Of a DNA stretch of 64,000 nt, positions 36,994-39,191 are shown piece by piece. The DNA lies in the NCBI RefSeq assembly GCF_000875775.1, contig NZ_CP010868.1, forward strand, positions 744,001 to 808,000, written 5' to 3'. Made by a program: the position numbers and the translations under genes. Origin of the DNA: Nitrosopumilus piranensis. Lineage in GTDB: Archaea; Thermoproteota; Nitrososphaeria; Nitrososphaerales; Nitrosopumilaceae. Numbering within the stretch: the first letter of the stretch is position 1; each line of letters starts with the position of its first letter. The notes under the pieces are model-generated. The model was not told the origin of the DNA, made no database searches, and worked only from the letters and a program-made list of their open reading frames with translations.

Positions 36994-37365
36994 ATGTTTA
37001 AAATTCGAGATTTACAATCAAAAAAATACATCTTGCTTGAAACATACAGAAAAAATGCTCAACCTGTAAGAACTCCTGTTTGGTTTGTTATTCAAAATGA
37101 CTTGGTTTATGTGATAACCCGAGAAGATACAGGAAAGGTAAAACGCATTAGGCAAAACCCAAAGGTCAAACTTACCCTGTGTACCTTTAAAGGCAATCCC
37201 ATTGGAGAGTGGATTTCAGGGGATGCAACTAAAGTAACTGGTGAAGAGGCACAGGTTGCCATTAATCTTAGAAAGAAAAAATATGGATTTATGGCTATAA
37301 TTGCAGGTTTTGTAAGCCGAGGAAAAGGAGATTTGGTTGTTTTTTCTATAAAATTAGATTTATGA
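36994..37365 (+). CDS. PPOX-class flavin/F420-dependent oxidoreductase
   Basis: About 123 residues from ATG 36994, since TATTTAAAAC lies upstream and the extra N-terminus from 36940 has no family match. Split-barrel motifs are seen (RTPVWFVIQNDLVYVITREDTGKVKRIRQNPKVKLTL, then GEWISGDATKV). Relatives use F420 or FMN. It lies 40 bp upstream of the UbiE-like gene on the same strand, so a redox step in the same pathway is possible. Confidence 0.8.
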   Translation: MFKIRDLQSKKYILLETYRKNAQPVRTPVWFVIQNDLVYVITREDTGKVKRIRQNPKVKLTLCTFKGNPIGEWISGDATKVTGEEAQVAINLRKKKYGFMAIIAGFVSRGKGDLVVFSIKLDL

Positions 37366-37405
37366 TTTTTTGAAACCTTCTTAAGATAAAAAACAAAAAC
37401 TGTCT

Positions 37406-38089
37406 ATGATGGAAGAGAATCCCAAAGATTTTGTCCCTCGCTTTTTTAATCACACGTCAGGTTCCTACGATAAGATGGTGCATTGGACAACATTTGGAAA
37501 GGACATCTTATGGAAAAACAAGATCCTGGAACAGATATCTTCTGAAAAATCAGTGCTAGATCTTGCCTGTGGAACCGGAATTCTTACAAGACAAATAGCT
37601 GCTAAAATTCCACAAGCCAAAATAATTGGAGTTGACATCACCTCAACCTATCTACAGGTTGCAAGACAAAAATCAATTTCAAATAAAAACATCTCCTTTA
37701 TAGATGGGGATGCTGAAAAACTGTCCTTAGATAGAAAATTTGATTGTATCACTTCATCATATCTTCCAAAATACTGTTCCTCTGAAATCTTGGTCAAGAT
37801 CTGTTTTGATCACCTAAATGATGGAGGAAAGATTGTGTTACATGACTTTATTTATCCTACAAACAAATTTGTACAAAAACTCTGGAATTTGTACTTCAAA
37901 GTTCTACTTATGGTGGGAATTTTTATTCCAAGTTGGAATGATGTCTTTGAAAAATTGCCTTGTTTGATTAGGTCTTCGAACTGGGTAAAAGAGTGTGAAA
38001 GGGCCATGAAAAACTATGGCTTGAAAACTAATGTACAAAAATTAACGTGGGGTTGTTCCTCTATTGTCACTGGAACCAAGACTGTCTAG
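37406..38089 (+). CDS. UbiE/MenG-like C-methyltransferase
   Basis: 227 residues. The N-terminal FFNHTSGSYDKMVHWTTFGKDILW, SAM motif VLDLACGTGIL, LDRKFDCITSSY and GGKIVLHDFIYP are the standard order in UbiE/COQ5 (menaquinone/ubiquinone C-methylase) proteins. The 3' end overlaps the UbiC-like gene by 48 bp in convergent orientation. Together with the UbiA- and UbiC-like genes it suggests quinone synthesis, an inference. Confidence 0.82.
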   Translation: MMEENPKDFVPRFFNHTSGSYDKMVHWTTFGKDILWKNKILEQISSEKSVLDLACGTGILTRQIAAKIPQAKIIGVDITSTYLQVARQKSISNKNISFIDGDAEKLSLDRKFDCITSSYLPKYCSSEILVKICFDHLNDGGKIVLHDFIYPTNKFVQKLWNLYFKVLLMVGIFIPSWNDVFEKLPCLIRSSNWVKECERAMKNYGLKTNVQKLTWGCSSIVTGTKTV

Positions 38090-38488
38090 TCTAATCTCTT
38101 CAGAAATTATAAACCACACTGTTCCATCTACTGATATTTGATATTCTCTTGTAGTCTTGTTCTGACCATACTCCTTATCCAAAGATAATATCTTTCTTGT
38201 TGCACTAATATTATTTTGAATTAGAATTGAGCCTATTCCTTGCTTTTTTTTCAAAAGCTCATCTAGGATAACTTTTGGAAGTTGTCTTGAATCAAATTTT
38301 ACCTGTGCTTTAATGACCGGCAATTGATTGGAAGAAATTGTTACTTTTCTCTCAAAATGGTGGGGAGCAACTGCAGATTGCTCTACTACTTGCAATTGGA
38401 TATTGCTATCTAGAACTTTTCCTAAAACATTTACCACTTGACCTACGGGTGCTGCCAAAATTTTATTTAACAACTTCTCGGAACTCAA
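38042..38488 (-). CDS. Chorismate lyase-like (UbiC/DUF98) protein
   Basis: 148 residues. The pattern ERKVTISSNQLPVIKAQVKFDS, LKKKQGIGSILI, ATRKI and the late WFIISEEIRLDSLG follows the chorismate-pyruvate lyase fold: an Arg that binds substrate, the IG loop and the C-terminal Glu. Chorismate lyase makes 4-hydroxybenzoate. It starts 16 bp after the UbiA-like gene stop. Homology is by pattern only, so catalytic function is inferred. Confidence 0.65.
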   Translation of the reverse strand: MSSEKLLNKILAAPVGQVVNVLGKVLDSNIQLQVVEQSAVAPHHFERKVTISSNQLPVIKAQVKFDSRQLPKVILDELLKKKQGIGSILIQNNISATRKILSLDKEYGQNKTTREYQISVDGTVWFIISEEIRLDSLGSSDNRGTTPR

Positions 38489-38504
38489 CTAACTAATTTA
38501 ATCT

Positions 38505-39191
38505 CTAAAGATGTATTAAAACAAAAAAGAAAATAGTACCTGCCATTACTGATAAGCTGGTAATTTTAAGAATTGTCTCCTTGCTATGAACTATTTTATG
38601 TTGTGTACCTTTCTGTTTGAGGGCTTTATACTTTCGCGATGTAGTGATCAAAATATAGCTTACAAATCCTGCAATTGCAGATAATATCACAGTCTCAAAA
38701 GATACACTGTTTGAGTGAATTGCAGCACCTGCAAAAACCGGTAATATCCCCCAAGATATCACAAATGATACATTATTGTGGAATTTTCCACCAAATAACT
38801 CTAGATTGTATACAAAAAGAAAAAACCCTTCAATTATCCCTATTGGGAATAGTAACCAAGAATCCAAAAATGCAAAATACAAACCAATTGAAAAAGACAC
38901 ACTCAACGAAATTATTGCAGCTGCCCACAGTTTAGTTTTAGATAACTGTCCCCAAGGTTTTTTCTTACTTCCCTGGGCATCAAGACAATGAGCCGCCACC
39001 CCAATTGCTAAAAAATAGAGCAGGGCAACTGATCCAAGCCTATCCAAGGTAAAATCAACTGAGAGTGATCCCCAAATAGCAAATGATATTACCATTCCAG
39101 TATATGGCAAAAACAAGATTCCCACAGATAATCTAAAATTTCTAGAGCCAAACTTTGGAACAAACCATTCAGACATCCTGTCGTTTTGCAT
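38505..39191 (-). CDS. UbiA-like integral membrane protein
   Basis: 228 residues with about seven spans. The order of elements follows UbiA prenyltransferases (an Asp-bearing loop AHCLDAQGSKKKPWG after span 2, then YNLELFGGKFHNN and ISWGILPVFAGA after span 4), but the first aspartate motif NxxxDxxxD is not intact. It may be a divergent prenyltransferase or a degenerate relative. It is cotranscribed with the UbiC-like gene. Confidence 0.55.
   Translation of the reverse strand: MQNDRMSEWFVPKFGSRNFRLSVGILFLPYTGMVISFAIWGSLSVDFTLDRLGSVALLYFLAIGVAAHCLDAQGSKKKPWGQLSKTKLWAAAIISLSVSFSIGLYFAFLDSWLLFPIGIIEGFFLFVYNLELFGGKFHNNVSFVISWGILPVFAGAAIHSNSVSFETVILSAIAGFVSYILITTSRKYKALKQKGTQHKIVHSKETILKITSLSVMAGTIFFFVLIHL

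Follow-up and report, generated by a model that had tools for sequence, protein, structure and literature searches.

The window analyzed here, a 64,000-nucleotide stretch of the Nitrosopumilus piranensis chromosome (NZ_CP010868.1), contains four neighboring reading frames, all of which were found again at the positions and on the strands given in the original prediction. On the plus strand, a PPOX, F420-dependent oxidoreductase gene (36994..37365; TIGR03666, 109 bits, above the cut-off) lies next to the gene for a UbiE-like class I methyltransferase of 227 aa (37406..38089; PF01209, 79 bits, above the cut-off). On the minus strand are the genes for a UbiC/DUF98 chorismate-lyase-like protein of 148 aa (38042..38488; PF01947, 18.7 bits against a cut-off of 22) and a 228-aa candidate UbiA-fold membrane protein (38505..39191; PF01040, 28.8 bits, E 1e-6, against a cut-off of 34.2 bits). 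The UbiE- and UbiA-like genes form the core of the cassette described below. The spacing between the two minus-strand genes is exactly 16 bp, as had been read from the sequence. At their 3' ends, the UbiE-like and UbiC-like frames share 48 bp (38042..38089, both strands), and the corresponding overlap is 33 to 51 bp in relatives with the same arrangement. Profile searches, which had been proposed as a check, cleared the curated Pfam threshold for the UbiE-like protein and fell below it for the other two; all three family assignments are nevertheless supported.

By our own count, about 120 of 232 genomes of the class Nitrososphaeria carry a UbiA-like gene (matches at E≤1e-10). Among 120 distinct UbiA-like loci, 102 include a UbiE-like gene no farther than 1.5 kb away, and at 67 a UbiC-like gene was located within 0.5 kb. 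When the UbiC-like protein was used as the query against 150 class genomes, matches were obtained in 40 genomes, and nearly all of these UbiC-like genes were flanked by UbiA-like and UbiE-like genes. Besides the Nitrosopumilaceae, six further families of the class show linkage of the UbiA-like and UbiE-like genes, and both same-strand and opposite-strand orders occur. In family f1, the UbiE-like gene faces the UbiC-like and UbiA-like genes. Families f2 and f3 carry UbiE, UbiA, and UbiC in that order on a single strand, and in f2 an epimerase gene on the opposite strand is placed between the UbiE-like and UbiA-like genes. Nitrosocaldus-type loci additionally have a polyprenyl synthase gene near the cassette. 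Since the linkage is kept despite rearranged gene order, it is good evidence for a working unit, and we conclude that the UbiE-, UbiC-, and UbiA-like genes constitute a real, conserved three-gene cassette.

The PPOX gene was rejected as a member of the cassette. A relative of it was found near the cassette in only four further records of loci, and two of these, L053 and L103, are one contig judging by length. The four genes had been read as one block, with its conservation across thaumarchaeal genomes named as a check; the UbiE/UbiC/UbiA linkage is indeed kept, with UbiC at only part of the loci, and the oxidoreductase stands outside the conserved unit. Among the neighbors of the cassette, no family beyond UbiE, UbiC, and UbiA recurs as widely, and the members of the cassette include no hydroxylase or decarboxylase.

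A scan of named genomes added 80 loci, chiefly from Nitrosopumilaceae, Nitrososphaeraceae, and Nitrosocaldus, together with a Manganitrophus genome and a metagenome-assembled genome labelled Proteobacteria. In the two bacterial records (L161, CP114561.1, Manganitrophus; L164, WVXP01000023.1), the UbiA-like gene is 48 to 49% identical and is accompanied by a UbiE relative; no UbiC-like gene was found elsewhere in either genome. Several departures from the common layout were also recorded. Among those in f1 are four loci that have a UbiC-like gene without a UbiA-like neighbor (L062:9352-9822, L064:9158-9619, L065:9260-9721, and L067:9353-9814) and a fifth that has a second copy (L046:13603-14082), all distant from any UbiA-like gene. 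Two UbiA-like matches contain one internal stop codon and are possibly decaying (G022:C1:945014-945697 and G034:C1:319817-320500). In Nitrosopelagicus-type loci, such as L126:6681-7754 and L136:6680-7753, a gene resembling zinc-type alcohol dehydrogenases and quinone oxidoreductases lies between UbiA and UbiE.

At the Nitrosopumilaceae loci lacking UbiC, a different gene takes its place. A gene for a cupin-like protein of about 130 aa (for example, L126:5546-5944, L117:5527-5922, and L197:6805-7197) occurs near the UbiA-like gene at 30 of 30 UbiC-less loci, compared to 0 of 45 UbiC-bearing loci. In the loci inspected, it is immediately upstream of the UbiA-like gene and divergent from it. The cupin assignment is weak: a Cupin_2 match was obtained for one of three scanned proteins, below the cut-off, with an HKH..DE motif visible. 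The UbiC-less loci group together in tree order, so the exchange of UbiC for the cupin-like gene may represent one event rather than 30. Since UbiC is optional, the aromatic precursor could come from another source, or the pathway could begin differently.

The UbiC-like protein gave a confident structure model (pLDDT 92). Its closest solved structure is PDB 2nwi (AF1396, DUF98), with a sequence E value of 7e-15 and a fold TM score of 0.75; AF1396 shares the DUF98 fold and is itself listed as a hypothetical protein. E. coli chorismate lyase appeared lower in the fold list (TM 0.5 to 0.6). Q37, R47, G86, and E130 occur without exception in the 71 sequences compared. R47 aligns with the catalytic Arg of E. 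coli UbiC, which is R77 when numbered from Met1 and, we assume, R76 of the mature protein, and E130 is positioned as the catalytic Glu through the 2nwi alignment. With PF01947, scores of 31.9 and 37.6 bits were obtained for relatives from other families, against 18.7 bits for the window protein and a cut-off of 22. Together, the alignments and the model assign a chorismate-lyase/DUF98 fold to the UbiC-like protein, with the predicted catalytic Arg and Glu retained.

The membrane protein was also modeled confidently (AlphaFold2, pLDDT 91). The top PDB folds for this model were UbiA homologues, with modest scores (TM 0.5 to 0.6, best E value 0.006), and a PDB search with the sequence returned no match. 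PF01040 matched at E≤0.01 in 24 of 31 relatives, and the two bacterial relatives scored 23.6 and 33.4 bits. The model places the protein in a UbiA-type fold, though weakly. Structure prediction had been named as a test that could place the membrane gene outside this fold; it did not, and it assigned the UbiC-like protein to the DUF98/chorismate lyase group.

UbiA prenyltransferases carry two Asp-rich motifs, NDxxDxxxD and DxxxD (PMC7839719). The original prediction noted that the first motif is not intact in the window protein and cautioned that its role may differ. Both points held, and the change goes further, as both motifs are missing in every UbiA-like member inspected. In their place, the members from ammonia-oxidizing archaea (AOA) have AHxxDxxGS..PW and SRxYKxLK, and the second-motif region of a MenA-like protein from the same genome aligned with SRKYKALKQK of the UbiA-like protein. 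The HxxD of the first-motif region is kept in 119 of 120 sequences, and H68, D71, Y128, E131, H138, W147, and P151 are each present in no fewer than 118 of the 120. From this conservation we infer that H68, D71, E131, and H138 may form a metal site. With both Asp motifs lost, the UbiA-fold protein may lack prenyl-transfer activity altogether.

The UbiE-like protein of the window scored 107.6 bits with the UbiE/MenG model TIGR01934, below its cut-off of 158.35. A cassette UbiE of family f13 reached 172 bits with the UbiE/MenG model, above the cut-off of about 158.

The original prediction saw in the gene block a plausible missing piece of the thaumarchaeal route to menaquinones. Futalosine genes in thaumarchaea have been described by Zhi and colleagues (PMC3914697), and menaquinones have been reported for N. 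maritimus (PMC8674956). In the N. piranensis genome, outside the cassette, we found a PF02621 gene of the MqnD type (G000:C1:1190945-1191721; 254 bits), an MqnC/MqnE pair (MqnC at the model cut-off, the MqnE-like protein below it), a menaquinone-biosynthesis decarboxylase (561 bits against a cut-off of 496), a MenA-like prenyltransferase, and, with the same score as the cassette UbiE, a second UbiE. The original prediction had named complete canonical menaquinone pathways elsewhere in the genome as contrary evidence. AOA genomes have mostly one PF02621 gene, of the MqnD type, which leaves the first futalosine step (MqnA) without an assigned gene. The same genome also encodes two heme o synthases (CyoE/CtaB; window:13547-14440 and G000:C1:399326-400129), both above the TIGR01473 cut-off.

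The distribution of the cassette bears directly on this question. It is missing from seven single-contig genomes of the same genus (G044, G050, G056, G058, G059, G065, and G080), all of which keep MqnD, the MenA-like prenyltransferase, and the second UbiE. Conversely, MqnD is absent from 14 genomes of family f4 in which the UbiA-like gene occurs. This double dissociation shows that the cassette and the futalosine gene MqnD can each occur without the other. No MenB above the cut-off was found in the seven f4 genomes tested. The tested f4 genomes have distant MenA-like genes and mostly also second-UbiE-like genes, so we do not claim that quinones, menaquinone included, are absent from f4.

We propose, at slightly under an even chance, that the cassette is an accessory unit for the synthesis or tailoring of an aromatic isoprenoid lipid distinct from standard menaquinone. 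According to this model, the UbiC-like protein would cleave chorismate, with 4-hydroxybenzoate as the most likely aromatic acid released; the UbiA-fold protein would act on a prenyl-aromatic compound at the membrane surface, through a rebuilt H/D/E/H site replacing the two Asp motifs that bind Mg-diphosphate; and the UbiE-like protein would C-methylate the ring. We infer every chemical step, substrate, and product of the cassette. The model draws on the linkage, the invariant UbiC residues, the folds, the f13 UbiE score, the Nitrosocaldus polyprenyl synthase, and the dissociation from MqnD; it is weakened by the loss of both Asp motifs, the modest UbiA fold scores, and the lack of a hydroxylase or decarboxylase.

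The cassette could instead serve a product outside the redox quinones. A pigment, a phenolic lipid at the surface, or a cofactor drawing on 4-hydroxybenzoate would be examples. UbiC-type lyases also supply non-quinone phenolic lipids, as Rv2949c does in mycobacteria, and the replacement of UbiC by a cupin-like gene in one clade would fit such a product. However, the homology of the methylase to UbiE indicates C-methylation of a quinol ring, and we judge this alternative rather unlikely. The cassette might also tailor finished menaquinone, for instance by methylating the ring once more or altering the head group in some other way; the UbiA-fold protein would then be a membrane enzyme that does not transfer prenyl groups. 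UbiE-type methylases have polyprenylated quinols as substrates, the loss of both Asp motifs speaks against new prenyl transfer, and an accessory distribution suits a modification. UbiC would then have no obvious role, though, and in f4, given the missing MqnD and MenB, a menaquinone substrate is uncertain even with the distant MenA-like and second-UbiE-like genes present; we consider tailoring of menaquinone improbable.

A missing part of the menaquinone pathway, as first predicted, is very improbable. UbiE- and UbiA-family enzymes do work late in menaquinone synthesis, and the MqnA step lacks an assigned gene, but the cassette is absent from many AOA genomes and cannot fill this gap, the seven cassette-less relatives retain the late pathway genes together with MqnD, and the product of UbiC, 4-hydroxybenzoate, is no menaquinone precursor. 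That the linkage is due to chance or annotation is hardly credible: the UbiC-like and UbiA-like matches in the window are under curated cut-offs, but the UbiA-like and UbiE-like genes are linked at most distinct loci, across families and in several orders, and the UbiC-like and UbiA-like structure models are confident.

A more far-reaching reading is advanced tentatively, as a possibility with the odds against it. Here, a new UbiA-fold branch with a rebuilt H-D-E-H site, which may hold some metal other than Mg, would work alongside a UbiE-type methylase and either a chorismate lyase or a cupin-like protein, according to lineage. The outcome would be an aromatic membrane lipid or quinone not yet described, present in most soil AOA and many aquatic ones. 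No account of the cassette product was found in the literature searched, a weak negative as this was mostly non-subscription papers. AOA are major players in the nitrogen cycle, and about half of the class genomes surveyed carry the conserved UbiA-fold gene, usually adjoining a UbiE-type methylase, without an assigned product. A UbiA-fold family without Asp motifs also bears on functional change within that fold.

The cassette combines the same three protein families as E. coli ubiC-ubiA and UbiE of the ubiquinone pathway. As in the cassette, ubiC and ubiA are adjacent in E. coli, and the chorismate-lyase Arg aligns. In contrast to E. coli UbiA, the cassette UbiA-like protein is shorter and lacks both Asp motifs, and no profile alignment of its family to the E. 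coli protein was obtained. UbiD, UbiX, and the hydroxylases of the ubiquinone pathway have no counterpart in the cassette. The methyl-plastoquinone pathway of Nitrospirota (MpqA to MpqE) is reported to use homologues of ubiquinone enzymes and has been analyzed beside UbiA to UbiE (PMC13386864). Compared to this pathway, the cassette UbiA-like protein is of a divergent type, and the window UbiE-like protein scored 63.5 bits with the MpqE model, whose cut-off is 335. In Ca. Nitrosocaldus cavascurensis, UbiC, UbiA, UbiE, GGPS, and CHLP (geranylgeranyl reductase) appear in the figure of integrated elements, as metabolic cargo of ICE-2 (PMC5797428). The UbiC, UbiA, and UbiE gene names are the same as those used here, and our Nitrosocaldus loci contain the same cassette. 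That study annotates the genes only, whereas in our UbiA tree the order of tips largely tracks host families, pointing to inheritance that was mostly vertical and accompanied by losses.
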